64,000 bases of DNA, taken from positions 1-64,000 of the forward strand of contig NZ_KB849729.1 of assembly GCF_000368865.1 (NCBI RefSeq). Reading direction: 5' to 3'. Below the pieces are notes generated by a model. It was not told the origin of the DNA, searched no databases, and worked only from the letters and a program-made list of their open reading frames with translations. The DNA comes from Acinetobacter bouvetii DSM 14964 = CIP 107468. Its GTDB lineage: Bacteria; Pseudomonadota; Gammaproteobacteria; Pseudomonadales; Moraxellaceae. A program made the translations under genes and the position numbers. Below, in pieces: positions 22,991 to 49,184 of the stretch (the first letter of the stretch is position 1; each line of letters starts with the position of its first letter).

Positions 22991-23072
22991 TAAAAATCAT
23001 ACCTTTAATCTATACTTCTCAACCTGCGAGAATCTGTTTTAACCTGTGTTTAGGTGGGTTAATCGGTTTGCA

Positions 23073-23121
23073 TTTACACCAAGTTTTACACCATAATCAA
23101 AAAAACAGGTTGTGGTGTAAA
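23073..23121. promoter_or_regulatory. Candidate integrase arm-type sites, left
   Basis: TTTACACCA occurs at 23073-23081 and 23085-23093, and inverted (TGGTGTAAA) at 23113-23121 just before the integrase ATG. A matching pair lies at the right end (48703-48722). Repeats at both ends suggest integrase or excisionase arm sites, with the third able to couple binding to int expression. Confidence 0.55.
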
Positions 23122-31677: not shown

Positions 31678-32715
31678 ATGGCGCATCAACTTGAACAAAT
31701 GGCCTATGTCGGCGAAACCCCTTGGCATGGCTTAGGCAACCAGCTAACCCAAAACCAGCCGATTGAAGTCTGGGCACAGCAGGCCGGGATGGACTGGCGC
31801 ATTGAATCATCCAATGTCAGCTACATGGCGCAGAATCAGCGCGGGCAATGCATCATCATGCCGTATGAAGAACAGCGTGTACTGTACCGTTCTGATACCC
31901 ATACACCTTTATCGGTGGTCAGTCAGCGTTATCAAGAAGTGCAACCGAAAGAGATTTTGGAGTTCTACCGAGATTTAACGGAGCAGTCAGGTTTTGAGCT
32001 GGAAACAGCTGGGGTATTGAAAGGCGGCAAGAAGTTCTGGGCTTTAGCCAGAACAGGGCAAAGCGCAGCACTCAAAGGCAAAGATGTCAGCAATGGCTAT
32101 ATGCTGCTGGCAACCGCTTGTGACGGCACACTGGCGACCACGGCGCAATTTACCAGTATCCGTGTAGTCTGCAACAATACCTTAGCCATTGCCTTGAAAG
32201 GACAGAACAGCAGTGCAGGTGTGGTCAAAGTGCCGCACAGTACCAAATTCGATGCACAAAAGATTAAACAGCAACTCGGTATTTCAGTACGTGCATGGGA
32301 TGAACATATGTATGAAATGAAACAGCTCAGTCAACGTAAAGTCACACAGACTGAAGCAGCAGCGTATTTTGATGCAGTATTTAATAACACCAGCTTAAGT
32401 CCAATCGAGCAGGATGAAGGCATTATTCAGTTCTACCGTAATGTCGCTACACAAGCCACAAAAGCTGAAAACAAAACTGAACCGAATGGCCGCGCGATGT
32501 CGAAAGTCATGACCATGTTTAATGGGCATGGCCGTGGGGCAGAATTGAGTTCAGCTAAAGATACGGCTTATGGCTTGCTGTGCTCAATTACCGAGTTCTG
32601 CGACCATGAGCGCCGCGCCATGAGTCAGGATCACCGTCTGGATTCTGCATGGTTTGGGGCTGGTGCAGGGCTTAAGCAGCGAGGACTGGAGCAGGCCTTG
32701 CGTATGATTGCTTAA
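31678..32715 (+). CDS. DUF932 (phage/plasmid-like, TIGR03299) protein
   Basis: 345 residues. MAYVGETPWHGLGNQL is the family opening, followed by the 'YRSDTHTPLSVVSQRYQEVQP' and 'SIRVVCNNTLAIAL' blocks. DUF932 proteins are common on conjugative elements and large plasmids, with a suspected link to DNA processing; the biochemistry is unknown. First of three similarly arranged genes with YqaJ and an RDF-like protein. Confidence 0.92.
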   Translation: MAHQLEQMAYVGETPWHGLGNQLTQNQPIEVWAQQAGMDWRIESSNVSYMAQNQRGQCIIMPYEEQRVLYRSDTHTPLSVVSQRYQEVQPKEILEFYRDLTEQSGFELETAGVLKGGKKFWALARTGQSAALKGKDVSNGYMLLATACDGTLATTAQFTSIRVVCNNTLAIALKGQNSSAGVVKVPHSTKFDAQKIKQQLGISVRAWDEHMYEMKQLSQRKVTQTEAAAYFDAVFNNTSLSPIEQDEGIIQFYRNVATQATKAENKTEPNGRAMSKVMTMFNGHGRGAELSSAKDTAYGLLCSITEFCDHERRAMSQDHRLDSAWFGAGAGLKQRGLEQALRMIA

Positions 32716-32863: not shown

Positions 32864-33904
32864 ATGAAATCAGCAATGACCATTTCTCAAACCAAAACGC
32901 AGCCGCAACAGCGTATACCGAAGCTATTTATGGCAAAACGCTTTGTTGATACCCGAAAACTCAGTCAGGCCGAATGGCTGGAAGTGCGCAGGCAAGGTAT
33001 TGGCAGCAGTGACTGTGCTGCTGCCTGTGGGCTCAATCCCTATATGTCGATGCTGGAACTGTGGATGATTAAAACAGGGCGGATTAAACAATCGATTGAG
33101 GATGAAAGTGAAGGTCATGCACCTTTGTATTGGGGCAAGCAGTTAGAGCCACTCGTTGCCGAATACTACAGCATGCATACCAACCGAAAAGTCCGTCGAG
33201 TGAATGCTGTGCTGCAGCATCCTGATCCAGACAAGTCCTTCATGCTGGCGAACCTAGATTATTCAGTTGTAGGCAGTGAAGACGTTCAGGTGCTTGAATG
33301 CAAAACTGCAGGGGAGCATGGCGCCAAGCTGTGGCGGGACGGTGTGCCGCTATATGTGCTCTGTCAGGTGCAGCATCAGTTGGCGGTGACAGGCAAGCAA
33401 GCAGCCCATATTTGTGTGCTGATCTGCGGGCATGAAACCCGCATTTTTAAAGTGACCCGCAGTGAGTCGGTGATTCAGCATATTGTGAATGCCGAACGCT
33501 ATTTCTGGGACTGTGTGGAAAAGGATACGCCACCTGAAGCGGATGCCAGTGAGTCGGCAGCCAAAGCTCTACAACTGCTTTATCCGGAACATGTACCACT
33601 CTCTACGACAGATCTATCTGAAAATGAACAAGCTAATCAACAGTTTGAACAACTAATCCGAGTACGCAATCAAGTTGAAAAGTATCAACAGCAATTTGAG
33701 CTAATCAAACACCAACTGCAAGGCCAGATGCAAGAGGCTGAGAGAGCGACCTTTAAAGCGGGTTCCGTGACATGGAAGAAATCGAAGAATTCGATCAGTT
33801 TAGACACGAAGGCTCTGCTTAAGTCACACCCTGAGTATCTGAATCAGTTTCCACAAAACAAGCAGGGTACACGGCGCTTCAATATTTATACCAATGATGA
33901 TTGA
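32864..33904 (+). CDS. YqaJ viral recombinase family exonuclease
   Basis: 346 residues with an N-terminal YqaJ/lambda-exonuclease domain. RRQGIGSSDCAAACGLNPYMS is the entry motif, LYWGKQLEPLVAEYY supplies the acidic residue, and the nuclease core is ANLDYSV plus LECKTAG (D...E-x-K). The last 100 residues are helical and Gln-rich. It would degrade 5' strands for single-strand annealing; no recombinase partner (Bet/RecT) is encoded nearby. Confidence 0.92.
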   Translation: MKSAMTISQTKTQPQQRIPKLFMAKRFVDTRKLSQAEWLEVRRQGIGSSDCAAACGLNPYMSMLELWMIKTGRIKQSIEDESEGHAPLYWGKQLEPLVAEYYSMHTNRKVRRVNAVLQHPDPDKSFMLANLDYSVVGSEDVQVLECKTAGEHGAKLWRDGVPLYVLCQVQHQLAVTGKQAAHICVLICGHETRIFKVTRSESVIQHIVNAERYFWDCVEKDTPPEADASESAAKALQLLYPEHVPLSTTDLSENEQANQQFEQLIRVRNQVEKYQQQFELIKHQLQGQMQEAERATFKAGSVTWKKSKNSISLDTKALLKSHPEYLNQFPQNKQGTRRFNIYTNDD

Positions 33905-34029: not shown

Positions 34030-34962
34030 ATGATGATTAAAGGTTTAGCGATTACACCGCCAATACTCGGGCGGATCAGTATCGGTAAAGTCGTTGAAAA
34101 GAATGGCAAACGTATTCCTGAAAAAGATGATCAGTTCACCATTACCAGCCAAATCCAAAATAAAGAGGGCTGGGTCAAACACCCCTTAGATGAGCAACTA
34201 CGAGCCAAAGCTCAAAATCAAAAACTTAGAAGCATTCCAGTACGCATGATTTTTAATGATCCTGAACTGAATCTACGTGCAGAGTACAGCTTATTCGATC
34301 GACAGACAGGACGCCCAGTTTGTATCGGCAATGGCGAAACGTGTCAGCGCTTAACCAATCAAGGCGTAGAGCAACATCCATGTCCATCACCTGATTTATG
34401 CTCATTGGCACAAGGAGGGCTATGTAAGCCTTATGGGCGTTTGTATGTGAATTTAGATGAGTCGGATGAGTTTGGTGCTTTCGTTTTTAGAACCACTGGT
34501 TTTAATAGTATTCGCACCTTAGCCGCACGACTCAGTTACTACCATGCTGCATCGAATGGCTTACTTTCATGCCTGCCTCTGCAACTCACACTGAGAGGCA
34601 AGAGCACCACACAAAGCTATCGTACGCCAGTCTATTACGTAGATCTGACTTTACGTGAAGGCATGCATTTACAAGAGGCGATTCAAACCGCAAAGGAAAT
34701 TGATCAGAAAAGTAAGCTCTGTGGATTTAACCAAGTTGCTTTAGATCAGGCAGCTTTACAAGGCTATGTAAATTCGCAGTTTGAGGTGAATGTGGAGGAA
34801 GGCTTGGATTTGGTAGATGAGTTTTATACAGATGGGCTTGTTGAATCTGAACAAATGAAACCTGAGTCGAAACCCAAGGTTAAAGTAAAGTTCAATCAAG
34901 GGGATGGTTTTGTGCAGGATATTCAGCAAGGGTTGCAGGGGAGTGTGAGGGCAGTGAATTGA
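34030..34962 (+). CDS. Recombination directionality factor-like / 'metal-binding' ICE protein
   Basis: 310 residues. GLAITPPILGRISIGKV at the start and 'PVRMIFNDPELNLRAEYSLFD' are typical of a family seen on ICEs and plasmids, labelled either hydrolase/metal-binding or phage Gp3-like RDF. A Cys cluster (CIGNGETCQR...HPCPSPDLCSL...LCKP, residues about 97-137) may bind zinc. Follows DUF932 and YqaJ in the order common on conjugative elements. The RDF role is inference from family labels. Confidence 0.75.
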   Translation: MMIKGLAITPPILGRISIGKVVEKNGKRIPEKDDQFTITSQIQNKEGWVKHPLDEQLRAKAQNQKLRSIPVRMIFNDPELNLRAEYSLFDRQTGRPVCIGNGETCQRLTNQGVEQHPCPSPDLCSLAQGGLCKPYGRLYVNLDESDEFGAFVFRTTGFNSIRTLAARLSYYHAASNGLLSCLPLQLTLRGKSTTQSYRTPVYYVDLTLREGMHLQEAIQTAKEIDQKSKLCGFNQVALDQAALQGYVNSQFEVNVEEGLDLVDEFYTDGLVESEQMKPESKPKVKVKFNQGDGFVQDIQQGLQGSVRAVN

Positions 34963-34996: not shown

Positions 34997-35080
34997 GTTA
35001 TACACTCGATTTATTTTTTTATCATATTTAGTATCAATAGCTTATAGAACTATCGTATTAAGTCTAAACTTTGTATTTAT

Positions 35081-35473
35081 TCAAGCTAAATTTTTCAATA
35101 CACCACATCTATCAACTGTGCATGAACCATCGCATGTCTTTCTTATATCTAATAATTGTTCAATTAGTTTTTGCTGATTTTTGATACTTTCTTGTACATC
35201 TACAATATGTGCGTCAATTAATTCATTTACTTCTGAACAGTTTTGGGTAGGTAAATCTTTATAAGAAAGCAATATTTTAATTTCATTAAGATTCATATTT
35301 AGAGAGCGGCAATTAACTATAAATTTTAATCGGTCGATATAAGCTTCGGAGTACATTCTATAGTTCCCCTCAGTTCTTTCAGGCTGAGGAATAAGACCCT
35401 CCTTCTCATAGAACCTAATAGTTAGTACTGAACAAGAAGTTTTCTCAGATAACTCACCTATTTTTAAAAACAT
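35081..35473 (-). CDS. cadR: CadR-type MerR family metal regulator
   Basis: A 130-residue MerR family activator. The N-terminal helix-turn-helix (KIGELSEKTSCSVLTIRFYEKEGL) is followed by the dimerisation helix. Metal-site cysteines are NCSEVNELIDAHI and the C-terminal CDGSCTVDRCG, the pattern of Cd/Pb/Zn sensors (CadR/PbrR). The start at 35473 was preferred; a frame 9 nt longer exists. Divergent from the CDF gene, with a MerR-type operator between. Confidence 0.9.
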   Translation of the reverse strand: MFLKIGELSEKTSCSVLTIRFYEKEGLIPQPERTEGNYRMYSEAYIDRLKFIVNCRSLNMNLNEIKILLSYKDLPTQNCSEVNELIDAHIVDVQESIKNQQKLIEQLLDIRKTCDGSCTVDRCGVLKNLA

Positions 35474-35493
35474 TGAAATCAACCAAATCTAGC

Positions 35494-35526
35494 TTGACTC
35501 TATAGTAGCTATAGGGATTCTAATAT
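35494..35526 (+). promoter_or_regulatory. MerR/CadR operator-promoter
   Basis: TTGACT (-35, 35494-35499) and TAATAT (-10, 35521-35526) are separated by about 20-21 bp. The spacer holds the dyad CTATAG-TAG-CTATAG. Overlong spacing with a central dyad is the signature of MerR-activated metal promoters. Confidence 0.85.
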
Positions 35527-35559
35527 GCAATAAGTGAAAATATGACTATAGGTACATCC

Positions 35560-36855
35560 ATGAGTGGTTGCGGTTGTAATGAAAGTTCTTGTGACGATAC
35601 TAAACCCAAACAAAATATATCTGAAACTGATTCTTGTAGTGGTACAGATTTAAAAACTGAAACAAATAAAAAGTCTTGTTGTGATAAAGGTATTGCTAGC
35701 GTGTCTAAAGAGCAGATCACTGTAGATGCTTGTGGTGGTAGTCAGCCTTGTTCAACAAAGGCTAAATCATGCTGTGGAACAGATACAAGTAATCAGCAAC
35801 AAGACATACATAAAGAAATAGGCAAAGCAACTCTCATTAGCGATTACACCATTCCTAAAATGGATTGTTCCGCAGAGGAACAGATGGTCAGAATGTCTTT
35901 GTCCTCTTTAGAAAGCGTTAATAGTTTAATTTTTGACTTACCAAATCGAAATCTAAAAGTTTTGCATGAAGGCAATACAAATTTAATTACTTCAAAACTT
36001 GAAGCACTCGGTTTTGGAGCAAAGTTAAATTCAACTGAAACCTATATTGATAACAAAAGTTCGAAGCAGACCAGCACCTATATCATTCCTAAAATGGATT
36101 GTTCCGCAGAAGAACAAATGGTGCGAATGGCTTTAGCACCACTAAGTGAGGTCAAAGCCTTAGCTTTTGATCTTCCAAATAGAAAGTTACAGGTTTTCCA
36201 TACCGATGGAATCTCAGAAATCACAACGAAACTTGAGGGTCTTGGTTTTGGAGCGAAGCTCGAAAGTACTGTTGAATCAACAGGAGTTTTACCTGACAGT
36301 CCTGATCCAACTAGACAAGCTAAAGTTCTCAAAATACTACTCGCAATTAACGCAGTGCTTTTTGTCATTGAGTTTATTAGTGGCATTATTGCCGCTTCCA
36401 CAGGATTAATCGCCGACTCTCTGGATATGTTTGCTGATGCTGCCGTTTATGGCATTGCACTTTATGCAGTAGGTAAAGTAGCAAAATATCAAGTTAGAGC
36501 AGCTCACTTCGCTGGTTGGATTCAGCTCTTACTAGCTGTAATTGTTATTGTTGATGTCGTTAGACGTTTTATGTTTGGTAGTGAACCTGAATCTAATCTC
36601 ATGATTATCATCGGCTTGTTTGCACTTGCCGCGAATGTCACTTGTTTATATCTCATATCTGGGCACAAAGATGGTGGTGCTCACATGAAGGCAAGTTGGA
36701 TTTTCTCAGCGAATGATGTGATCGTTAATATGGGTGTAATTCTCGCAGGAGTACTCGTTGCTTGGACAGGCTCAGCTTACCCTGACCTGATTATTGGAAT
36801 TATTGTTTCTTTATTCGTGCTGAATGGTGCTCGAAAGATTTTGGCCTTGAAGTAG
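35560..36855 (+). CDS. CDF cation transporter with Cys-rich head and two HMA-like repeats
   Basis: 431 residues. A Cys-rich N-terminus of about 75 residues (many CC and CxC pairs) leads into two near-identical HMA-like units at 35845-36027 and 36079-36261, each starting Y-x-IPKMDCSAEEQMVRM and ending LEx-LGFGAKL. A six-helix cation diffusion facilitator follows, with GLIADSLDMFADA (TM2 metal-site Asp pair) and ANDVIVNMGVILAG. It should export Cd/Zn-type ions across the inner membrane. ATG at 35542 is an alternative start. First gene of a CadR-controlled run with feoA and feoB. Confidence 0.88.
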   Translation: MSGCGCNESSCDDTKPKQNISETDSCSGTDLKTETNKKSCCDKGIASVSKEQITVDACGGSQPCSTKAKSCCGTDTSNQQQDIHKEIGKATLISDYTIPKMDCSAEEQMVRMSLSSLESVNSLIFDLPNRNLKVLHEGNTNLITSKLEALGFGAKLNSTETYIDNKSSKQTSTYIIPKMDCSAEEQMVRMALAPLSEVKALAFDLPNRKLQVFHTDGISEITTKLEGLGFGAKLESTVESTGVLPDSPDPTRQAKVLKILLAINAVLFVIEFISGIIAASTGLIADSLDMFADAAVYGIALYAVGKVAKYQVRAAHFAGWIQLLLAVIVIVDVVRRFMFGSEPESNLMIIIGLFALAANVTCLYLISGHKDGGAHMKASWIFSANDVIVNMGVILAGVLVAWTGSAYPDLIIGIIVSLFVLNGARKILALK

Positions 36856-36865
36856 GACTTTTATA

Positions 36866-37120
36866 ATGAACTTATTTCAAGTGAAACCAAATCAGTTTGC
36901 AAAGATTGTTGATCTCAAAAAAAGGGATCAATACACCAACAAAGACCCTGTGCTTGAAAGACTTGAGTTACTGGGTTTTAGAGTTGGGGAATCTCTACAA
37001 GTTCTTGAAAAGGGGTTATTCGGTGGCGATCCAATCTTAGTTCAAATCGAAACATCACGCTTTGCCCTAAGAAAAAATGAAGCTGAACGAATTTTTGTAG
37101 AGATCATCAATGAACACTAA
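36866..37120 (+). CDS. feoA: FeoA-like protein
   Basis: 84 residues, an SH3-like FeoA domain: LERLELLGFRVGESLQVLEKG followed by 'GGDPILVQIETSRFALRKNEA'. It starts 10 nt after the CDF gene with TAGGA upstream and overlaps feoB by 11 nt. It normally assists FeoB in ferrous iron uptake. Confidence 0.9.
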   Translation: MNLFQVKPNQFAKIVDLKKRDQYTNKDPVLERLELLGFRVGESLQVLEKGLFGGDPILVQIETSRFALRKNEAERIFVEIINEH

Positions 37121-38939
37121 AAATATTGCACTCATTGGTAATCCCAATTGTGGTAAAACCTCACTTTTTAACACTCTTACTGGTACTCGACAAAAAGTTG
37201 CAAACTATGCGGGTGTGACTGTTGAACGTAAGGAAGGTTTCTTTAAGTTACCTTCAGGAGATTCCGTTCGAGTATTAGATTTGCCGGGGACTTATAGTTT
37301 AAAACCAAGTAGCTTGGATGAAGAAGTAACAAGAGCTGTTTGCTTCGGTGAGCTAAAAGGTGAAGTATTACCTGACATTTTTGTTTGTGTTGTTGATGCT
37401 ACAAATCTTCACCTTCATTTAAGCCTAGTACTAGAGCTCAGAGCGTTAAATAGACCGATGTTACTCGTCTTGAATATGATGGATGAAGTAAAAAAACGTG
37501 GAATTTCAATTGACACCTCAAAACTATCACAACTTTTAGGAGTGCCTGTTGTTGAATCCGTCGCTGTGAAAACAAAAGGGATTCAGGAGCTATTAACGCA
37601 GTTAGATCAAAAAAATCTATTTGTTGCACCTTATTATTCTGAGCTAAATCATTTTGATCAGATTAAATACATTACTAAGCAAGTTATTTTAAAAAATGAC
37701 AGTGGTGATAAACGAACTGCATTTTTAGACAAAATATTTTTACATCCTGTCTTTGGCCTACTAATTTTGACGCTGACCATGTTTGTCATGTTTCAGGCCG
37801 TTTTTATTTGGGCACAGCCTTTCATTGCTTTTATTGAAGACTCAATTACTTGGCTAAGTGGTGCAATTGGCCCCTTGATTTCGCATCCATTATTAAGAAG
37901 TTTGATTGTTGATGGTGTGATTGCGGGTGCAGGCAGTGTTCTAGCTTATATGCCCCAAATTCTTATCCTTTTCTTCTTTATTTTGATCTTAGAGGAATCG
38001 GGTTATTTGCCAAGAGCAGCCTTCTTATTAGACAAGCTTATGTCTAAAGCAGGGTTAAGCGGTCGTTCATTCATTCCATTACTTTCCAGTTTCGCTTGTG
38101 CTATTCCTGGAGTCATGGCAACAAGAAGTATTAGCTCTGAACGAGATCGTTTAGCAACGATTATGATTGCGCCATTAATGACATGTTCTGCTCGACTACC
38201 TGTATATGCTTTATTAATAGCCGCGTTCATTCCTAATAAGTTGGTTTATGGGTGGCTCAGCTTACAAGGTTTAGTCCTGTTCGGACTTTACATGTCAGGA
38301 ATCATATCTGCGCTATTGGTTTCGTTATTTTTAAAGTTAGTTCGAAAAGATAAAACTGAAAGTATTTTTATTTTTGAATTACCAACTTACCGTTTACCAG
38401 ATATTAGAAATGTTGCATTAGGCCTATATGACAGAGCAACAATTTTCTTAAAGCGAGTTGGTGGAATTATTGTCGCTTTATCAATTTTGTTATGGGTACT
38501 CGTAACATTTCCTCAGCCACCAGATAACGCCACAATGCCTGCAATTAATTACAGCCTAGCAGGGCAATTGGGGCATATCATTCACCCTATTTTTGCCCCA
38601 ATCGGCTTTACATGGGAAATTTGTATTGCGCTCATTCCTGCAATGGCAGCCCGTGAAGTAATTATTGCTGCATTAGGTGTGATTTACGCTATGTCTGGGG
38701 ATGAAGATACAGTCACACAAACTCTGCTCAGTCAAATTTCTGGGCCTGATGGATGGGGACTTGCAACAGGCTTATCACTCTTGGTTTGGTTTATTTTTGC
38801 ACCTCATTGTCTTGCAACATTAGCAACAATCAAGCGTGAAACAGGTAGTTGGAAACAACCAATTATTATGGCTGCCTATTTGTTCTCACTCGCTTATTTT
38901 TTCTCTTTTGTTACGTATCAGATTGCTAGCCGCATATAG
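37110..38939 (+). CDS. feoB: Ferrous iron transporter FeoB
   Basis: 609 residues, shorter than the 750-790 of enterobacterial FeoB. The N-terminal G domain has GNPNCGKTSLFN (G1), DLPGTYSL (G3) and LNMMDE (G4). A short linker follows, then membrane gates including 'CAIPGVMATRSISSERDRL' and 'AAREVIIAALGVIYAM'. It imports Fe(II) using GTP. Unusually it is transcribed behind a CadR-regulated CDF exporter, which suggests iron supply tied to metal stress. Confidence 0.93.
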   Translation: MNTKNIALIGNPNCGKTSLFNTLTGTRQKVANYAGVTVERKEGFFKLPSGDSVRVLDLPGTYSLKPSSLDEEVTRAVCFGELKGEVLPDIFVCVVDATNLHLHLSLVLELRALNRPMLLVLNMMDEVKKRGISIDTSKLSQLLGVPVVESVAVKTKGIQELLTQLDQKNLFVAPYYSELNHFDQIKYITKQVILKNDSGDKRTAFLDKIFLHPVFGLLILTLTMFVMFQAVFIWAQPFIAFIEDSITWLSGAIGPLISHPLLRSLIVDGVIAGAGSVLAYMPQILILFFFILILEESGYLPRAAFLLDKLMSKAGLSGRSFIPLLSSFACAIPGVMATRSISSERDRLATIMIAPLMTCSARLPVYALLIAAFIPNKLVYGWLSLQGLVLFGLYMSGIISALLVSLFLKLVRKDKTESIFIFELPTYRLPDIRNVALGLYDRATIFLKRVGGIIVALSILLWVLVTFPQPPDNATMPAINYSLAGQLGHIIHPIFAPIGFTWEICIALIPAMAAREVIIAALGVIYAMSGDEDTVTQTLLSQISGPDGWGLATGLSLLVWFIFAPHCLATLATIKRETGSWKQPIIMAAYLFSLAYFFSFVTYQIASRI

Positions 38940-38953
38940 TTAAGTTGAATATC

Positions 38954-38984
38954 GAACAGCGGTGAAATTATCGCTGTTTGTATC
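38954..38984 (+). terminator. Weak terminator after feoB
   Basis: AACAGCG pairs with CGCTGTT around a 10-nt loop, then TTGTATCTTCTT. Short stem. Confidence 0.5.
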
Positions 38985-39046
38985 TTCTTAATTAAAGTTA
39001 GAATTTTGAAGTAGAAGTTTTATTATGAAAACGGGTTTATTTGGAA

Positions 39047-39075
39047 TTGCATATATATGTTTATTCGTATATAAG
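39047..39075 (+). promoter_or_regulatory. Candidate arsC promoter
   Basis: TTGCAT, 17 bp, TATAAG, embedded in alternating AT sequence (ATATATATG...TATATATAACG) like ArsR-family operators. It is 32 bp before the arsC start. Confidence 0.5.
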
Positions 39076-39106
39076 TATATATAACGATTCAATTGAGTTT
39101 GAGCAA

Positions 39107-39541
39107 ATGTCTGCTACCCTAAACGTTAAAATTTATCACAATCCTGAATGTGGTACATCACGCAATACATTGGCGTTAATTCGTAATGCCAATATTGAAC
39201 CTGAAGTCATTAACTACCTTGAAACACCACCATCTAAAAATGCACTGATTCAAATAATTGCGGATGCGGGTTTAACTGTGAGAGAAGCAATTCGAAAGAA
39301 TGTTGATCCTTATTCTGATCTAGAGTTGGACCGTGAGGATTGGACGGATGAGCAGCTGCTTAACTTTATGCTTCAGTATCCAATTTTAATTAATCGTCCA
39401 TTCGTGGTGACTGAACTAGGAACTCGTTTAAGTCGCCCGTCAGAACTGGTTTTAGAAATTCTGCCACTCCCACAAAAGGGTGCTTTTACTAAAGAAGACG
39501 GCGAACAAGTGCTAGATGCAAATGGGCAGCGATTGAAATAA
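39107..39541 (+). CDS. arsC: Arsenate reductase, glutaredoxin-coupled ArsC
   Basis: 144 residues. HNPECGTSRN with catalytic Cys15 and a downstream 'LINRPFVVTELGTRLSRPSE' are hallmarks of the ArsC/Spx-fold arsenate reductase that uses glutathione/glutaredoxin. The start was set at 39107 because upstream codons are AT-rich promoter sequence. First gene of the arsenic cluster. A second, unrelated reductase lies three genes on. Confidence 0.94.
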   Translation: MSATLNVKIYHNPECGTSRNTLALIRNANIEPEVINYLETPPSKNALIQIIADAGLTVREAIRKNVDPYSDLELDREDWTDEQLLNFMLQYPILINRPFVVTELGTRLSRPSELVLEILPLPQKGAFTKEDGEQVLDANGQRLK

Positions 39542-39548
39542 AAATTTC

Positions 39549-39578
39549 ATGGATATATGTGAATATTGATATATCCAT
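39549..39578. promoter_or_regulatory. Candidate ArsR operator ahead of arsR
   Basis: ATGGATATAT (39549-39558) is a perfect inverted repeat of ATATATCCAT (39569-39578) with a 10-bp spacer. It lies between arsC and arsR, just upstream of the arsR ribosome site, and suggests an internal self-regulated promoter. Confidence 0.68.
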
Positions 39579-39598
39579 ATGTTTGAGTGAGTAAAAAT

Positions 39599-39919
39599 AT
39601 GGATCAAATCAATTTCTTTAAATGTTTGGCTGATGAGACGCGATTCAATATCGTCATGTTGGTTCTTGGAAATAATGAACAGTGTGTTTGTGATTTGACT
39701 GAAAAACTAGAGTTGAGCCAACCCAAGATTTCACGGCATTTAGCCTTACTGCGTTCTTCTGGTCTTTTACAAGATCGACGTCAAGGACAATGGGTCTATT
39801 ACAGTCTCAATCCCAATTTACCCACTTGGTGTATAGACGTACTTAACACCCTTAAAAATGCTGATTTACAGCCAAAAGTTGCTCCATCATTTCAACAAAT
39901 CAATAGTTATTGCGAGTAG
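39599..39919 (+). CDS. arsR: ArsR family arsenic repressor
   Basis: 106 residues. A winged helix with 'QCVCDLTEKLELSQPKISRHLALL': the CVC (Cys29/Cys31) in the recognition region is the As(III)-binding site of classical ArsR. ATG at 39599 is preferred; GTG at 39587 is in frame. It represses the cluster until arsenite or antimonite binds. The next gene starts 6 nt later. Confidence 0.93.
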   Translation: MDQINFFKCLADETRFNIVMLVLGNNEQCVCDLTEKLELSQPKISRHLALLRSSGLLQDRRQGQWVYYSLNPNLPTWCIDVLNTLKNADLQPKVAPSFQQINSYCE

Positions 39920-39925
39920 AACAAG

Positions 39926-40399
39926 ATGAAATTCCTTTTTTTATGTACTGGAAATAGTTGCCGTAGCATCCTGTCAGAAGTGCTGTTTAATAGTCGTGCC
40001 CCAGAGGGTTGGAAAGCATATAGTGCAGGTAGTAAGCCATCAGGGCAAGTACATCCATTGACCATTGAAACTCTAGAAAATTTAGGTCTTTCAACTGAAG
40101 GGTTATGGAGTAAAACCATTGATGATTGTGAACAATATCAACCTGACGTAGTGATTACGGTTTGTGATTCGGCTGCGCAAGAAGCGTGTCCACTGTATTT
40201 AGGTGGAGCAATCAAGGCACATTGGGGCTTGGCTGATCCTTCGCATTTAGACTTGCCGAAAGAAGAGAAGCTCAAAGCATTCCAAGTGACTGTAGACCAT
40301 ATCAATCGTCGTTTAGATGCGTTATTTGCACTGGATACAGCGCACATGTCTCGTGCTGAATTGATTGCTGCAATCAATCACATCTCAGATATTGAATGA
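39926..40399 (+). CDS. Arsenate reductase, LMW phosphatase type
   Basis: 157 residues. The P-loop CTGNSCRS (Cys7...Arg13) at the N-terminus and the central '[16 protein letters not shown]' redox cysteines identify the low-molecular-weight-phosphatase-fold ArsC coupled to thioredoxin or mycoredoxin-like reductants. It is different in fold from the first reductase. The trxB gene in the same operon could feed its thioredoxin. Confidence 0.92.
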
Positions 40400-40406
40400 G
40401 AACATC

Positions 40407-41450
40407 ATGGCTCAACAAAGACTGTCATTTTTAGATCGTAACCTCACGCTATGGATTTTCATTGCGATGGGGGTGGGAATAGCGATAGGTGTGTTCTTTC
40501 CACAAGCCTCAGTGGCATTGGATAAAATGAGTGTGGATTCTGTCAATATTCCAATTGCGATTGGTTTGATTCTGATGATGTATCCACCATTAGCTAAAGT
40601 GGATTATGCCGCGCTACCACAAGTGTTTAAAGACAAAAAAACCTTAACTCTGTCTTTGGTACAGAACTGGGTGATAGCACCAGTATTGATGTTTGCATTA
40701 GCCATTATTTTTCTACATAGCTATCCAGAGTATATGACAGGCTTAATCCTGATAGGACTGGCTCGTTGTATTGCGATGGTCTTGGTGTGGAACGGTTTGG
40801 CCTGTGGGGATAACCAATATGTTGCTGCATTGGTGGCTTTTAACAGTATCTTCCAAATTTTATTTTTCAGTACCTATGCTTGGTTGTTCTTGACCTTCTT
40901 ACCACCTTATTTTGGTGTTGCAGGGCAAGTGATCAATGTCGATTTCTGGACCATTACCCATGCGGTACTAGTGTATTTGGGAATTCCATTTTTCCTTGGC
41001 TTTATGACGCGATTCACTCTAGTGAAAGCTAAAGGTCTGGATTGGTATCAAAATGTCTTCTTACCTAAGATCAGTCCACTGAGTCTACTGGCTTTATTAT
41101 TCACGATTGTGGCGATGTTTAGTCTCAAAGGGAACGACGTAGTGAGCTTACCGATGGATGTCTTGCGTATTGCGATTCCATTGACGATTTACTTTATCGT
41201 GATGTTCTTCATCAGCTTCTTCATGAGCAAATGGATGGGGAACGATTATCCTAAAACCACAGCTATTTCTTTTACTGCCGCGGGAAATAACTTTGAATTA
41301 GCACTTGCTGTAGCGATTGCAACTTTTGGTTTAGCTTCACCTGTGGCGTTTACCACGGTAATCGGCCCATTGGTTGAAGTACCAGTGTTGATTGCTTTAG
41401 TCAGTGTGTCTTTGTGGCTCAGAAAAAAGTTTTTTAAAGCAGAGGTGTAA
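40407..41450 (+). CDS. acr3: Arsenite efflux transporter Acr3
   Basis: 347 residues and ten hydrophobic helices. '[21 protein letters not shown]' carries the conserved Cys of Acr3 and '[20 protein letters not shown]' is the other signature. It extrudes As(OH)3/arsenite through the inner membrane. The start is at 40407 (ATGGCTCAA), 7 nt after the upstream stop; a longer frame overlaps that gene and is less likely. Confidence 0.95.
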
Positions 41451-41455
41451 TTTCT

Positions 41456-42160
41456 ATGACTCTCCCAAATGTAGATATGAATCTTTTGGATCAACCGACT
41501 TTAGAAAAGGTACAAGCTAAAGAATTGGATCATCCACCCCGTATTTTGCTGCTGTATGGTTCAAACCGTGAGCGTTCATACAGCCGTTTGGCCGTAATGG
41601 AAGCAGGACGTATCTTGGAGCAGTTTGGTGCCGAAGTAAAAATCTTTCATCCTAAAGGGCTACCTTTACCTGAAGATGCGGACACTGAACATCCAAAGGT
41701 TAAAGAGTTGCATGATTTACTCGCTTGGGCAGAAGGCATGGTGTGGTGTTCGCCTGAGCGTCATGGCTCAATGAGTTCAATTTTCAAATCGCAAATTGAC
41801 TGGATTCCACTGGCAGGTGGTGCAATTCGTGCAACCCAAGGCAAGACTTTGGCGCTCATGCAAGTCAGTGGTGGATCGCAGTCTTTTAACAGCTTAAACC
41901 AGATGCGTATTTTAGGCCGTTGGATGCGGATGATCACCATTCCGAACCAATCGTCTATTCCTAAAGCTTTTTTAGAGTTTGAGGAAAATGGAAGGATGAA
42001 ACCTTCATCCTTCTATGATCGAATTGTCGATGTCATGGAGGAGCTGTATAAATTCACGCTACTGACGCGTGGGCAGAGTCAGTACCTCACGGACCGTTAT
42101 TCAGAGCGAAAAGAGTCGGCAGAAGAATTATCTAAGCGTGTCAATCAACGTAGCTTATAA
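41456..42160 (+). CDS. arsH: ArsH NADPH-dependent FMN reductase
   Basis: 234 residues. '[17 protein letters not shown]' is the FMN loop and '[25 protein letters not shown]' is diagnostic of ArsH. It oxidises trivalent organoarsenicals and protects against oxidative stress. 5 nt after acr3. Confidence 0.95.
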
Positions 42161-42171
42161 ACTTTAGGTGA

Positions 42172-43131
<960 letters not shown>

Positions 43132-43166
43132 AAGGCTCATTTAAACGCTTGAAAATTGCATGAAAT

Positions 43167-43200
43167 ACGCCCAGTCTGTTGAGCGGACTGGGCGTTATTT
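43167..43200 (+). terminator. Terminator between trxB and arsO
   Basis: ACGCCCAGTC pairs with GACTGGGCGT (10 bp) around a 9-nt loop, then TATTTTG. Confidence 0.88.
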
Positions 43201-43232
43201 TGATTATGACAATAAATAATAGGAGAGAAGCT

Positions 43233-44300
43233 TTGACTCAATTACAAGCTGAAGTCGATGTAGTCATTATTGGTGGCGGTCAGGCAGCCCTTGCCACAGC
43301 TTATTTCCTCAAACGTAAGAAAATTCCATTTATTATTTTAGATGACCAATCTCAGGCGGGCGGTGCATGGTCACATGCTTGGGAATCTCTTCGTCTTTTT
43401 TCTCCAAATACTTGGAGTTCGTTGTCAGGTTGGATTATGCCAACAACTGAACAAACCTACCCAACGCGAAATGAAGTGATTGACTACTTGTCTGCATACG
43501 AGCAACGCTATCAATTTCCAATTATTCGACCAGTTCATGTCGATCATATCGAACAAAAAGATGGCTATTTAGATGTGTATGCTGGCGATCAATATTGGCG
43601 AGCTAAAGCGGTGGTCAGTGCGACAGGGACATGGAGTCAGCCTTATATTCCGCATTATGAAGGACATGAACGATTTGAAGGATTACAAACGCATTCAGCA
43701 CATTATGTAAATCCAGAGCCTTTTATCAATAAGAAAGTGATTGTAGTTGGTGGTGGTAACTCAGGGGCACAAATTCTTGCCGAAGTCTCAAAAGTTGCAG
43801 ATACCACTTGGGTCACAGTAACACCACCTCAATTTTTATCGGATGATGTTGATGGGCGTGTTTTATTTCTTCGGGCTACTGAACGTTTAAAAGCCCAACA
43901 GGAAGGTCGTGTGATTGATCAACCCGTTGGTGGTCTGGGTGATATTGTCATGATAGACAGTGTCAAAGAGGCCCGCGAACGTGGCGTACTACATAGTCGA
44001 GAGCCTTTTACCTCATTTGAGGAGCATTCCGTTGTTTGGGCTGATGGTACAAGACAAGCAGTAGATGCTGTGATTTGGTGTACAGGGTTCAAAGCTTCAT
44101 TGAATCACTTAAGAAGTCTTGATGTGGTAGAGCCTGATCAGACAGTTGCTGTGAATGATGGGCGCTCAGTAAAAGTAAATAACCTTTGGTTGGTTGGCTA
44201 TGGGGAATGGACAGGCATGGCATCCGCAACACTCATTGGGGTTTCTAGAACAGCAAGAGCAACGGTAGATCAAATAGCTGCTTATTTGGCTAATGTTTAA
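43233..44300 (+). CDS. arsO: ArsO-like flavin-containing monooxygenase
   Basis: 355 residues. FAD motif [13 protein letters not shown], then '[25 protein letters not shown]', NADPH motif [14 protein letters not shown] and a late 'WCTGFKASL'. This is the ArsO group tied to arsenic operons; the exact substrate is debated. TTG at 43233 is chosen because AGGAG precedes it at 7 nt; ATG at 43206 is in frame but lacks a ribosome site. It begins right after a terminator. Confidence 0.9.
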
Positions 44301-44375
44301 GAGCTATGCATTTAAGGCAGTGTATAGAAAGGTTTGCATTGCCCCTCAAGACTTTATGGATACTTCTTTATTGTG

Positions 44376-45563
44376 ATGTTACTTCATTCAAGAAAATACA
44401 AACTCATTGCTGTTATGGGCTTCACGCAGATTCTTGCGTGGAGTTCTACATTTTATCTACCCGCAGTACTGGCTAATCTTATTGCCAAAGACACAGGATG
44501 GTCTCTAACTTTAGTGATTGCAGGATTGTCTTGGGGATTTATTGTTACAGGTATTTGCTCTCCAAAAGTTGGACGGGTTATCGAGCAATTTGGTGGAAGA
44601 AAAGCACTCTCTATTAGTTCAATATTCTTCGCTATCGGACTGTTATGTTTAGGGCTTTCCTCTCATCTATTGGTTTATTATTTTGCATGGACAATGCTCG
44701 GTATTGGTATGGCTTTTGGCTTATATGATGCTGCATTTTCAACCTTGGGGCGATTACTTGGTCAAGATGCAAAAACAGCTATAGTAGGAGTAACACTATT
44801 AGGTGGCTTAGCCAGTACTATCGGATGGGCACTCATCGTATTTTTAGAAGGCTTATACGGTTGGAGAATTACTTGCTTCATTCTTGCATTATTTCATCTG
44901 CTACTCGGTTTGCCGTTGCATTACTTTTTACTTCCTAGAGAAGAGCAAAGCACGGAAGCTCACGCTAAAGAACTCAATAGCCAAACCAATCTACATAAAG
45001 GAGGTAATAGACTCTTTATGTTGGTAGCCGTTATTTTGACGGTACAATCTTTTGTTGTGGCGACAATTTCAGTTCATTTATTATCGATGCTAAAAACCAT
45101 TGGTTTTAGTGTATCAACAGCCCTTGCGATTGGGATGATGATTGGTCCCGCGCAAATTATAGCGAGGCTGCTTGAGTTCTCTTTGTTTAAAAACTTGCAC
45201 CCAAGTTGGTCAAGTCGTGTTGGGGTCTTGATTAGTTTCTTTGGCATCATTTTTTTGTTCACGGATGGATATGTCTTAGCCTTGCTTGGTGCGGCGTTAT
45301 ATGGCGCAGGGAATGGTATTCTTACTATTATTCGAGGCACGTTACCTCTCGCCTTATTTGGGCAAGAAGGTTATGCAACCAGAATGGGCTTATTAGGTCG
45401 GCCTATCATGATTGCACTGGCTTTTGGGCCTCTCATCTCTGCGTTTATTCTTGAAAAGTGGGGAATTAATATTTTACTAATAATTTTAACTGCTTTGGTT
45501 TTTATCGCATTGCTTGGCACGCTGAAATTACCCGTTCAACAAGCGGAGAAAGTGGCAGAGTAA
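44376..45563 (+). CDS. MFS transporter in arsenic cluster
   Basis: 395 residues with twelve hydrophobic helices. Openings 'GFTQILAWSSTFYLPAVLANLIA' and the loop 'SPKVGRVIEQFGGRKALS' match the major facilitator loop 2-3 motif. Its place after arsO suggests export of an arsenical or of an ArsO product, but the sequence does not prove it. The start is uncertain: a TTG 42 nt upstream is in frame. Confidence 0.85.
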   Translation: MLLHSRKYKLIAVMGFTQILAWSSTFYLPAVLANLIAKDTGWSLTLVIAGLSWGFIVTGICSPKVGRVIEQFGGRKALSISSIFFAIGLLCLGLSSHLLVYYFAWTMLGIGMAFGLYDAAFSTLGRLLGQDAKTAIVGVTLLGGLASTIGWALIVFLEGLYGWRITCFILALFHLLLGLPLHYFLLPREEQSTEAHAKELNSQTNLHKGGNRLFMLVAVILTVQSFVVATISVHLLSMLKTIGFSVSTALAIGMMIGPAQIIARLLEFSLFKNLHPSWSSRVGVLISFFGIIFLFTDGYVLALLGAALYGAGNGILTIIRGTLPLALFGQEGYATRMGLLGRPIMIALAFGPLISAFILEKWGINILLIILTALVFIALLGTLKLPVQQAEKVAE

Positions 45564-45596
45564 ACTCTATTGAATGGAAGCAATAGAGTTTTCTTT
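45562..45596. terminator. Terminator between convergent genes
   Basis: AACTCTATTG pairs with CAATAGAGTT around AATGGAAG, followed by TTCTTTC; shared by the MFS gene and the opposing arsO-like gene. Confidence 0.82.
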
Positions 45597-45622
45597 CAAC
45601 AAACTCAAGATTGACTTAAAAC

Positions 45623-46663
45623 TTAACTTTTCAAGTCTTTCAATAGCAATGGCATGATATAGGCAGCATCAGCACCGACACCACGTAAGGTCGCTGATGC
45701 AAAATTTCTTTGTTTAGGAAAGCCTAAAAAATATAAGCCTGAATGTGCATCCGATACTCCATTACGCTGAATTAGGTTTTGATTTGAATCAATCACTTTT
45801 AACCCATCTAAATACGAAACATTAGGTCTAAATCCTGTGGCAAATAAGAGTGTGTCAATTTCTTCTTTTACACCATTTGACCAAATGACACCAGATTCAT
45901 CTACTTCAGTAAACATTTCGCGTTGCTGAAATAGTCCGCTTTTCAGGGCCGCACGGTATCTTCCATCATCTAAGACAGGTGTGCTTTGATCGTTTAGCCA
46001 TCGTGTTTTTTCTAAGCCTGTCCATTTTAACCACCAGTGAAAATCCATACCTAGGATTTTCTGCGGGAAGAACTTTATCTTCTCTCGGCTTGCAATTGTA
46101 ACGTTTGAGGAAGCTCCTAATTCAGCTGCGATTTGTACAGCAGAGTTTGCGGCTCCCACCACGACTATTTTTTGATTGATATAGTTTTGTGGATTCAGAT
46201 ATGAAGCACTATGGATAATTTTTCCTTTAAATTTATCTAGTCCTTTTATTTTAGGGATATACGGCTTAGCAAATGCACCAGAGGCAGCAATAATTGTTTT
46301 GGTCTGATAACGATTGTTTTGTCTTGTTAAGACTTCAAAACCTTGATCATTAGGAGTAACGCTTATGACGCTTTCATTCAGCTGAATAGGAAAGTTAAAT
46401 TTTTCAGCATACGATTTTAAATAGTTGATTACTTCGTCTCGTAGAGGATATGCATGTGCAGTTTTAGGAAAGCTGAAATCAGGTAGTGATGAATATGCGG
46501 CAGGAGAGAATAATTTTAAGCTGTCGTAATAATGATGCCATGAACCTCCAATCTGATTAGTTGCTTCTAGAATAAGAAAATTAACCTGATTTTTTTTAAG
46601 ATGCCATGCAGCCGCTAGACCTGCTTGCCCTGCACCAATGACCAATGTTTCTATTGTTTTCAT
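45623..46663 (-). CDS. Second ArsO-like flavin monooxygenase
   Basis: 346 residues, a paralogue of the 43233 product: VIGAGQAGLAAAWHL, 'IGGSWHHYYDSLKLFSPAAYSSLP', 'VVVGAANSAVQIAAEL' and 'LLFATGFRPN'. The NADPH motif reads GAANSA instead of GGGNSG. It follows a second arsR on the minus strand, with an operator-like dyad between them. Confidence 0.88.
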   Translation of the reverse strand: MKTIETLVIGAGQAGLAAAWHLKKNQVNFLILEATNQIGGSWHHYYDSLKLFSPAAYSSLPDFSFPKTAHAYPLRDEVINYLKSYAEKFNFPIQLNESVISVTPNDQGFEVLTRQNNRYQTKTIIAASGAFAKPYIPKIKGLDKFKGKIIHSASYLNPQNYINQKIVVVGAANSAVQIAAELGASSNVTIASREKIKFFPQKILGMDFHWWLKWTGLEKTRWLNDQSTPVLDDGRYRAALKSGLFQQREMFTEVDESGVIWSNGVKEEIDTLLFATGFRPNVSYLDGLKVIDSNQNLIQRNGVSDAHSGLYFLGFPKQRNFASATLRGVGADAAYIMPLLLKDLKS

Positions 46664-46682
46664 AAAATCGAACCTGTATTAA

Positions 46683-46710
46683 ATGTGTTTATATGCACAT
46701 ATATACATAT
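46683..46710. promoter_or_regulatory. Operator-like dyad before second arsO-like gene
   Basis: ATGTG-TTTATATG-CACAT (46683-46700) followed by ATATACATAT. It lies between arsR2 and the flavin monooxygenase and shares the ATGTG/CACAT words with the dyad upstream of arsR2. Confidence 0.55.
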
Positions 46711-46727
46711 ATTGGATAAAAAAAGAG

Positions 46728-47051
46728 TTAGTTACAGCAATACGGCATGATGAGTTTCAGTTCCTTCAAGATGGCTTCAAACTTATGAATAATCTCTAAA
46801 CCATTGATTTCGTAAATACGATGCCTTCCTGCGCGTTCAACACGTAAAATTCCTGCATCGAGTAGAACTTGTAAATGACGCGATATTACAGATCTTTCTT
46901 GAGGAAGGTCTTCAGCAATTTGGCTGATATCTGCTTTACCAAGTATTAAAAGTTGACGAATCACAGCAAGTCTTGCAGGTTCTTGTAATGCCTTAAAAAG
47001 AGGGTCATTGAGAACGCTAAGTGCGGAATCAATGGCGAGTTCTTTATTCAT
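46728..47051 (-). CDS. Second ArsR family repressor
   Basis: 107 residues, a winged helix with 'DISQIAEDLPQERSVISRHLQVLLDAGIL'. It lacks the CVC of the first ArsR; cysteines are instead a C-terminal pair (YCCN). Metal or oxidised-thiol sensing by a different site is likely. Probably controls itself and the adjacent monooxygenase. Confidence 0.9.
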   Translation of the reverse strand: MNKELAIDSALSVLNDPLFKALQEPARLAVIRQLLILGKADISQIAEDLPQERSVISRHLQVLLDAGILRVERAGRHRIYEINGLEIIHKFEAILKELKLIMPYCCN

Positions 47052-47101
47052 TTGGATAAAGTCTGATTGTATCGTGGCCTAAAGATAACACGATAAAATA
47101 C

Positions 47102-47125
47102 ATATGTGTATATTTGCGCACATAT
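47102..47125. promoter_or_regulatory. Operator-like dyad upstream of arsR2
   Basis: ATATGTG (47102-47108) and CACATAT (47119-47125) with a 10-bp spacer, the same geometry as the arsR1 dyad at 39549-39578. Confidence 0.62.
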
Positions 47126-47245
47126 TGAAATGGGAAATGTAGATACTTAAACCAAAATTAAAGTTTATTTCATTCATATATGTTCTGGTTTATATTAATA
47201 AGAATTTGATTTAAAAGCTAAATAATAAAATTTGGGGGATTGAAT

Positions 47246-48475
47246 TTGGAATTTAATATTACTTTTTATGATAGTTTCGGAAATCCATTTGATTTTGAAA
47301 CATTACAGCAATTAAAGAATTTTCTTAATTTAGAAAAAAAATTTTGGTCTGAGCAGAAACAAGATATTGGTGAAAACCTTACAGGAAATTTTTCCAAATT
47401 CCCTGAACAAGTTGACCGTCTTTTTACTCATTTAGAACCTTATGAAAATGCTTTGAGTATGGATCCTCCCCCAGTCAATATTGATCAGCTAATGCATAAT
47501 TATGAAGGTTATAAATCTCAATTTATACAGTGGTGTGGATCATATTGGATTTACAGAGGAAATCCAAATACTGAAGCTTTAATTAATGCTTATAGGTATT
47601 CTACAGCTTCGGGGATAGCTTTTTGGAATGCCATTAAGAATAAGCGTGTGGAATTGGGGAACCAACAATTTCATACATTTATCGGAATGATCATGGCTTA
47701 TGAGTTTGTCTTTCAAGATCATGCGCAAATGTTTAAGCGTAGAAATTCTGAGAAAAAAACTTTCAGTACTTTAAGAAATGAACTTGAGTCCGAAAGAAAT
47801 GAACAGATTAAAGAATTTCAGAACTTTTGTGATCAATATTCTGAATGGTCTATTGAATCAAAAAAAGATTTTGAAAATAGAATTGCTGATTATCAAGAAC
47901 GTTCAAATTCAACTATTCAAGACCATTCTAATTTTTTTAACGAAATGGCTGATCATGCAATCAACAGAAATAAAGAACTTGAGGACCTGTACGTCGAAAA
48001 ATTAAGATTAGAAAAGCCTGCAAAATATTGGGAGAATCGTGCAAAAGATCTTAAGAACCAAGGTATCATTTGGTCAATTTTCTTGGTGGTAGTTTTGGGA
48101 ATAGGTATTGCTTATTTTAGCTATTTATTTACTCACTGGTTAAAAGGGCAGGAAATAGCACTTTCGCTCCACAGTTTGCAGGGGGCAATATTACTAGCTG
48201 TGATTATTTCAATGTTTGTTTTTTCAATCAGAGTACTTTCTCGTTTAGTATTCAGCTCATTCCATTTGCAACGCGATGCTGAAGAACGTCAGCAATTGGC
48301 TTATGTTTATTTAGCATTAAGTAATGAAACAAATGTAGATGAAGAATCAAGAAAAATTGTCCTACAGGCCTTATTTAGTAGAGCTGAAACAGGATTACTT
48401 GCCTCAGAGTCTGGTCCAACTATGCCGGGTGTAGAGGGTATTGCAGGATTGATATCTAAGGCTAATAAAGCTTAG
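47246..48475 (+). CDS. DUF6161-like membrane protein with coiled coil
   Basis: 409 residues. The N-terminal half is soluble and aromatic-rich. A charged coiled coil runs from about 165 to 270, then two transmembrane helices (about 280-300 and 318-338). The tail is soluble with a 'LAYVYLALSNETNVDEESRKIVLQALFSRAETGL' helix. This fits the uncharacterised DUF6161 group. TTG at 47246 is taken as start because GGGGGA lies 6 nt before it; another TTG lies 6 nt upstream. AT-rich. Last intact gene before the right end of the island. Confidence 0.75.
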   Translation: MEFNITFYDSFGNPFDFETLQQLKNFLNLEKKFWSEQKQDIGENLTGNFSKFPEQVDRLFTHLEPYENALSMDPPPVNIDQLMHNYEGYKSQFIQWCGSYWIYRGNPNTEALINAYRYSTASGIAFWNAIKNKRVELGNQQFHTFIGMIMAYEFVFQDHAQMFKRRNSEKKTFSTLRNELESERNEQIKEFQNFCDQYSEWSIESKKDFENRIADYQERSNSTIQDHSNFFNEMADHAINRNKELEDLYVEKLRLEKPAKYWENRAKDLKNQGIIWSIFLVVVLGIGIAYFSYLFTHWLKGQEIALSLHSLQGAILLAVIISMFVFSIRVLSRLVFSSFHLQRDAEERQQLAYVYLALSNETNVDEESRKIVLQALFSRAETGLLASESGPTMPGVEGIAGLISKANKA

Positions 48476-48590
48476 ATCAATAATTTCAATAAATCTGCTA
48501 CAAATATGCCAATTTTAAGTTATCACTTAACTGGTTTGATACACATTTATAATTGTGTATAAAACTGTGTACATATTGAAGATTCCCCTT

Positions 48591-48665
48591 ATGTTTAAAG
48601 ATCAATTAGCTAGAGAAGTCGCGGCTCGCAGAACTTTTGCTATTATTTCCCACCCAAATAGTTAA
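48591..48665 (+). pseudogene. prfC: prfC 5' fragment (release factor 3)
   Basis: A 24-codon frame: MFKDQLAREVAARRTFAIIS and then HPNS-stop. The EVA-x-RRTFAIISHP run is the invariant start of peptide chain release factor 3, normally followed by DAGKTT, which is absent. The 5' end of prfC is the target of SXT/R391-family integrases, so this looks like an attachment-site scar carried in the island. Confidence 0.85.
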
Positions 48666-48702
48666 ATTTAGACATTCCTAGTTTTTTATCTAATAATTGA
48701 TT

Positions 48703-48722
48703 CTTACACCAAATTTACACCA
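48703..48722. promoter_or_regulatory. Candidate integrase arm-type sites, right
   Basis: CTTACACCA (48703-48711) and TTTACACCA (48714-48722), matching the TTTACACCA pair at the left end with similar spacing (11 vs 12 bp). Confidence 0.55.
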
Positions 48723-48762
48723 TTAATTTAATTTTAAAATTTAAATTGTTGAATTAATTGAG

Positions 48763-48849
48763 TTATTTTTTAAGTATTGTCCAATCCATCATCGGGGCAA
48801 CAGAAATGCGGGGATGAAGTTTATTTTCAATGGTATGAAGATTCGTCAT
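48763..48849 (-). pseudogene. dusA: Displaced native 5' end of dusA
   Basis: ATG at 48849 reads MTNLHTIENKLHPRISVAPM and then MDWTILKK-stop. Residues 13-24 (PRISVAPMMDWT) are identical and in the same numbering as the intact DusA; only the first 12 differ. The frame runs into island sequence after the repeat and stops. It is the original dusA start separated by the insertion. Confidence 0.93.
48779..48802. repeat. attR-type direct repeat
   Basis: GTCCAATCCATCATCGG then one mismatch then GCAACA; the partner of 22920-22943 and the right boundary of the island. Confidence 0.92.
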
Positions 48850-49184
48850 TAAAAATGATGCCTCGAAAACAATGCAATGGACAATGGGGATCAAACTGAA
48901 TTGGGGAGTATATTGAAATGGCTGGAGATGCCCTTTCAAAATAGGCCGTCATACTATCATAAAATAGGCGGATTTCGCGAAGCATTGTTCGCAGTCAGGG
49001 TTAACGCTACGCTATTTTAAATAGCAGAGGATGCTTTCATCGAATTGAAAAAAGTCATATGATCAATGAAAAATAATGAAATTTTCATCTTGAAGCAAAT
49101 GCATAATTTGAGATGTGCGGGTATGCTTGCTAAGCTGAAAATAAAAAATATATTGAATAATTTAGTTAAGAATAAAGGAATTGT
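48850..49184. other. Former dusA upstream region
   Basis: 335 bp with no gene. It should hold the native dusA promoter (pointing left) and the promoter of the lipoprotein at 49185. No repeat or further att site noticed. Confidence 0.6.

Follow-up and report, generated by a model that had tools for sequence, protein, structure and literature searches.

The window analysed here, a stretch of 64,000 nucleotides on contig C5 of the 3.39-Mb genome of Acinetobacter bouvetii DSM 14964 = CIP 107468 (NZ_KB849729.1, positions 1 to 64,000), contains a 25.9-kb genomic island inserted in dusA, and the right end of this island carries the beginning of a second gene, prfC, which encodes release factor 3 (RF3). 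This prfC fragment is almost certainly the fossil of an attachment site used by a family of Acinetobacter islands that insert in prfC (prfC islands), with which the window island also shares a gene backbone. The account that probably explains these features as a whole is that the chassis of a prfC island received a cassette composed of a dusA attachment site and its integrase. An initial annotation, made from the letters of the window alone, had proposed that the fragment came from a prfC-using element that switched site or merged with a dusA island, and the recovery of similar fossils in five other genomes, together with the shared backbone, upholds that proposal.

Positions 48591-48665 translate as MFKDQLAREVAARRTFAIISHPNS followed by a stop codon; genuine prfC continues as ISHPDAGKTT, whereas the fragment breaks off right after ISHP, with position 48655, two bases into the proline codon, as the last base in common with real prfC. 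The homology is longer than first noted, since it begins at about 48490 and takes in approximately 100 bp of the prfC promoter region, and the best match of 48490-48655 is 92.2% identical over 166 bp (genome G052; E-value 8e-66), far above chance. The annotated prfC 5' fragment ending at ISHP is thereby confirmed; its distance from the right attachment site is 123 bp when measured from the last prfC base to the dusA core, and the 114 bp originally given would correspond to counting from the stop codon. The host has an intact prfC of its own on a different contig (G000:C1:512972; N-terminus MSFKQELAAQVAQRR); this copy shares 75% identity with the fragment in the 65-base coding part and differs in the promoter and upstream region, which indicates that the fragment was not derived from it. 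An unrelated host prfC, with no known element joining these sequences at prfC, had been named as grounds for abandoning the proposal; the host copy is indeed diverged, yet elements joining these sequences at prfC do exist. In the window the fragment is joined directly to AAATAG, the attP-like form that would be expected of a circular prfC island. A role of the fossil as a promoter for dusA was ruled out by orientation, as it lies at the far end of the island and points away. In the plasmid collection, no match was obtained to 47240-48800 (near search) or to 48477-48800 (distant search).

The prfC islands emerged from a search of 175 genomes of the genus, several of which carry two prfC starts 7-45 kb apart. 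A left junction at prfC was found in 15 genomes, and in all of them the host prfC start runs to ATTTCCCACCC (the prfC core, 65 bases into the gene), after which come AAATA and the island, whereas at the right junction the island's own prfC promoter and start pass through ATTTCCCACCC into the rest of prfC. These 15 islands remained from 22 candidate places after removal of five that were not prfC and two that were dusA fossils; 12 are whole and lie on one contig, with spans of 6.5-44 kb, and those of G051, G052 and G072 are split over contigs, with the middle contig possibly missing. The spacer that follows the fossil in the window equals all 15 left ends for five bases (AAATA) and is unlike them thereafter. 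With regard to integrases, the 399-aa prfC-island enzyme of G154 contains Arm-DNA-bind_3, Phage_int_M and Phage_integrase domains, in contrast to the dusA integrase, for which Pfam reports Phage_integrase only, and the pieces of the 15 prfC islands yielded no relative of the window integrase. When the prfC-island integrase was compared with the plasmid and phage collections, all matches fell below 60% identity, the best among the matches listed being 46%.

Several side observations concern the prfC site itself. The RF3 N-termini (noted at loci L005, L012 and L015) fall into two classes, native (..AAQVAQRR) and island (..REVAARR and similar), and some genomes in which only one prfC start was found carry the island class, perhaps as scars of lost islands. 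Another element occupies the same prfC site in G033 (L051; G033:C44), where CCCGCCC is joined to CAGTAATT without AAATA; this genome was kept outside all prfC-island counts. The prfC and dusA insertion sites are approximately 11-14 kb apart in several Acinetobacter genomes (e.g., G019:C8:548422 and 561974; G086:C1:632195 and 643373). Such chromosomal closeness was considered as a driver of exchange and set aside, as in the window genome the two genes lie on different contigs (C1 and C5).

The fossil recurs at the right ends of dusA islands. A pattern for the composite join matches four of the 175 genus genomes, and comparison across dusA-type right ends places the fossil at 6 of 51: those of G000 (the window genome), G042, G086, G138, G094 and G155. 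The right ends were collected as pattern matches in 49 genomes plus G090, G068 and G085, with one match kept per genome (two in G093), and the resulting 53 were reduced to 51 by excluding G141 and G093x, which are not island ends; the set is defined by end sequence rather than by a confirmed integrase at each end. The fossils of G094 and G155 score 42 and 51, values reached by none of 200 shuffles, and some fossil-free ends score 26-30. The G073 end (score 30, likewise reached by 0 of 200 shuffles) was not counted because its alignment covers about 42 bases only and stops short of the prfC core. The distance from the prfC core to the dusA core is 123 bp in G000, 124 in G042, 122 in G086, 126 in G094, 125 in G138 and 131 in G155. 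Only G000 and G042 retain an intact start codon and reading frame; in the other four these are damaged. All six hosts have a native-class prfC start (..AAQVAQRR), read as unoccupied, and all six fossils are of island type. In the flank between the prfC core and the dusA core, compared for five fossils with G155 left out, identity is 74% between G000 and G086, 73% between G042 and G138, and 53-62% in other pairs. The composite-join pattern had no match in viral contigs and three in named genomes, namely A. kyonggiensis and two metagenome-assembled genomes (Rhodanobacter and Clostridium), the latter two taken as chance without inspection.

Beyond the fossil, the window island and the prfC islands share a backbone. 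Its four genes, encoding replication (rep)-like, DUF932, YqaJ-type and Gp3-like proteins, are present in 14 of the 15 prfC islands, the exception being the 6.5-kb island of G170; amino acid identities there are 25-40% for the rep-like, 85-92% for the DUF932, 63-84% for the YqaJ-type and 74-86% for the Gp3-like protein, and in the first eight prfC islands compared the backbone genes found stand in the same order as in the window. The window island therefore has the backbone of a prfC island, but instead of being inserted at ATTTCCCACCC in prfC it sits in dusA and retains that site as a fossil only. DUF932 genes are common, occurring in 118 of 175 genus genomes, and one genome, G166, has ten DUF932 matches, which suggests that islands with this backbone are numerous there and occupy several sites.

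No such sharing was found for the cargo. The pieces of the 15 prfC islands yielded no DNA match to the region 35000-48480 and no protein match to the genes there, so that the search for the same cargo at prfC in other Acinetobacter, suggested in the initial annotation, had a negative outcome within these pieces, three islands being split over contigs. By contrast, the arsenic block (39041-44292) is 89-95% identical in at least five fossil-free dusA islands (G063, G030, G106, G164 and G073), in a comparison that scored one or two candidates per genome, and it was found in none of the 15 prfC islands. The earlier suggestion that the resistance cargo came from a prfC element is accordingly not borne out, and the composite origin concerns the chassis and the right end rather than the resistance cargo. 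In several of these dusA islands the arsenic-block match stops about 0.6 kb from the dusA core.

A dusA island of A. kyonggiensis (G042) is largely of prfC type. It is 40.9 kb long and, divided into three pieces and compared with pieces of the prfC islands from eight genomes, shows at least 90% identity to these over 28,289 of its 40,888 bases (69%). The eight-genome comparisons, here and below, used the same 8 of the 15 islands, one of which (G096) lacked its middle 15 kb in the base-by-base version. On the right-hand side, the cargo of the G042 island matches the prfC island of G036 at 96-98%, rising to 99% in the last 525 bp, which end at the prfC core. Its first 1.6 kb (the integrase end) and its last 117 bp (before the dusA core) had no match in the eight-genome pieces, and downstream of the integrase, similarity to prfC islands sets in just ahead of the following gene. 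A search of the 15 prfC islands' pieces for a dusA 5' end or right arm found none (E 0.01), apart from a lone core-like 17-mer with three mismatches in G010, taken as chance. Because the G042 body is largely of prfC type, its integrase end and last 117 bp are unmatched, and the prfC islands lack dusA ends, these comparisons favour a switch from prfC to dusA. At 98-99% identity, the prfC part of G042 is close to living prfC islands, while its flank shares 73% with the nearest of the fossils compared; this pattern would be expected had an old fossil been refreshed by recombination with prfC islands; alternatively, G042 may represent a recent separate event.

The proposed course of events starts from a circular form. 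Since prfC islands insert at ATTTCCCACCC and supply, from their right end, a new promoter and N-terminus for the gene, their circle is predicted to contain the island prfC start ending in ATTTCCCACCC, joined to AAATA and then to the left end with the prfC integrase. The dusA island would descend from a circle of this kind whose left end and prfC integrase had been exchanged for a cassette of approximately 1.7-1.8 kb comprising a dusA arm, the dusA core, a second dusA arm and the dusA integrase. One boundary of this cassette would coincide with the prfC core or fall at most a few bases from it, and the other, in G042, would lie just before the gene following the integrase; the converted element would then have inserted in dusA, carrying the idle prfC start along. 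We infer that the exchange took place in the circular form, that it ran in the direction prfC to dusA, and that the fossil had one old origin, after which it decayed or disappeared and, in G042, was renewed through recombination with prfC islands. The account builds on the observed join, its recurrence, the shared backbone, the differing integrases and the largely prfC-type body of G042, and it is further supported by the fossil stopping exactly at the prfC core, as do the prfC-island junctions.

Several results weigh against conversion of a whole chassis. Within the 25,843 bases of the window island, identity of 90% or more to the eight-genome prfC pieces is confined to the 166-bp fossil; 3,985 bases match at lower identity, and 21,692 are unmatched. 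Even the G042 island has 6,921 unmatched bases and 5,678 below 90%. Past AAATA, the window spacer resembles neither of the two prfC left-end types, and its identification as a prfC left end was dropped for lack of clear similarity; moreover, the G086, G138, G094 and G155 fossils lack AAATA directly after the prfC core, so the four to five bases shared in the window and G042 could be due to chance. The carriers are also scattered on the dusA-integrase tree, where six changes are needed for six carriers (shuffled mean 5.7; 500 of 500 shuffles as low as six) and a single clade of carriers is rejected (approximately unbiased test, p-AU 2e-12), the pairing of end and integrase being assumed for G168, G136 and G063, whose right ends lie on other contigs than the integrase. 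This scatter implies that the right end moved or was lost independently of the integrase and that the fossil was not simply inherited with it, which requires many losses, end-swapping or several origins. A narrower explanation is that the island was always a dusA island and gained only the right end of a prfC island, prfC start included, through recombination in the shared backbone, with site-specific or illegitimate recombination attaching the dusA arm at the prfC core. In its favour, the backbone offers the necessary homology, the window arsenic cargo matches that of other dusA islands, and fossil and integrase were not inherited together. However, this explanation does not by itself account for the precise stop at the prfC core or for the similar spacing of 122-131 bp in six islands, and the prfC-type sequence of G042 extends well beyond the right end; it is a serious but clearly less probable alternative to conversion of the chassis.

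The other two explanations have very little probability. The initial annotation had looked to the SXT/R391 integrative and conjugative elements (ICEs), envisaging that an SXT-type element once sat in prfC and was later captured. These ICEs are defined, in the account available in PMC2791158, by integration at prfC and a near-identical SXT integrase, and are about 100 kb in size according to the description in PMC2654960. The window island differs from them in size and present target, lying in dusA with a dusA-type integrase in a host whose prfC start is native-class; no conjugation genes were recognised by eye among 55 open reading frames (ORFs) of at least 130 aa, with Pfam scans covering 12 window proteins. 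The junction is explained instead by Acinetobacter prfC islands, a different family of 6.5-44 kb, 14 of 15 of which have the window backbone, so an SXT/R391 source is highly improbable. Even less credible is a chance copy of the host prfC start, introduced by illegitimate recombination without any prfC element: the host does have the same gene, but its 75% identity in the 65-base part, its different promoter, the island type of all six fossils and their identical position and end point in six genomes speak against this origin.

Evidence for a change of integration site usually comes from comparing related elements whose integrases are unrelated. Exchange of integration modules was reportedly described by Burrus in 2002 for the ICESt1 family. 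In SGI1-like islands, as outlined in PMC8409611, integration modules (trmE, dusA and yicC) are exchanged, a process proposed to occur in the circular form. Both groups resemble the present case in combining related bodies with unrelated integrases and different sites, and they differ from it in that here the old attachment site physically remains beside the new one. Module exchange is already known, and what is new here is the persistence of the fossil site; a literature search returned no account of a retained former attachment site in such islands, which is no proof of absence. The former site persists in six genomes at varied stages of decay, one of them (G042) mostly prfC-type. Such fossils help to orient the site switch, suggest the size of the exchanged cassette and show a route by which Acinetobacter dusA islands can obtain cargo from islands inserted at a different locus. 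More tentatively, the fossil prfC start, perhaps together with the intact prfC core in the window and G042, might possibly serve as a handle for whole-cargo exchange between prfC and dusA islands; if so, two insertion sites would draw on one cargo pool, and G042 would be a recent product.

Islands at both loci have been described in Acinetobacter. The dusA-associated islands, as characterised in PMC4482086 (Farrugia 2015), carry an integrase beside the dusA 5' end and imperfect repeats at both ends, and the G08 dusA island is described as bearing metal-resistance cargo (PMC6070778). The window island shares the integrase position, the end repeats and, as in G08, metal-resistance cargo, and additionally holds a fossil prfC attachment site; the main text of PMC4482086 never mentions 'prfC'. 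The island GI2 of A. baumannii NCIMB8209 is described as lying between release factor 3 and a hypothetical gene, about 13 kb from the dusA arsenic island GI3 of the same genome, and the description of these islands draws no link between the two sites (PMC7392541). Judged from this description rather than from sequence, GI2 is like the prfC islands in lying beside prfC.

The layout of the window island is that of a dusA island. The target gene, named dusA in the initial annotation and taken as such here, is an ORF on the minus strand (21968-22990) with its 5' end toward the island, and dusA is conserved next to the integrase in G086 and G138 as well. An imperfect 85-nt direct repeat (22920-23004 and 48779-48863), with a core of 17 identical bases (GTCCAATCCATCATCGG), marks both ends inside dusA, 25.9 kb apart: the core lies at 22920-22936 on the dusA side (attL) and at 48779-48795 at the far end (attR). 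A probable arm-type repeat, TTACACCAAGTTTTACACC (23074-23092, plus strand), putative in its role, lies on the integrase side, and a second, TTACACCAAATTTACACC (48704-48721), likewise putative in its role, follows the AAATA spacer (48656-48703) at the right end. The dusA-associated tyrosine integrase (23124-24272, plus strand; 382 aa; Pfam Phage_integrase, 1.1e-13) adjoins the dusA 5' end, and full-length copies with at least 84% identity occur in 30 of the 175 genus genomes.

The backbone genes, all on the plus strand, comprise a YagK/YfjJ C-terminal (replication-like) protein (27899-28768, Pfam), a DUF932 protein (31678-32715, Pfam), presumably a YqaJ-type exonuclease (32864-33904), matched by prfC-island relatives, and a Gp3-like protein (34030-34962; recombination directionality factor-like in Pfam). 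They are followed by cargo ORFs at 35081-47051 that, with three proteins scanned, we take to encode a MerR-type regulator, cation efflux, feoAB, the arsenic block, flavin oxidoreductases and a major facilitator superfamily transporter. The final gene ahead of the fossil encodes a DUF6161 protein (47240-48475, plus strand; Pfam 4.8e-45); with the window genome as its sole carrier among the 175 genus genomes (E 1e-20), it was dropped as a marker of the prfC right end. On the same strand, sequence comparison assigns 48490-48590 to a promoter region of prfC-island type, and 48591-48655 holds the first 65 bases of prfC, ending with the prfC core at 48645-48655.
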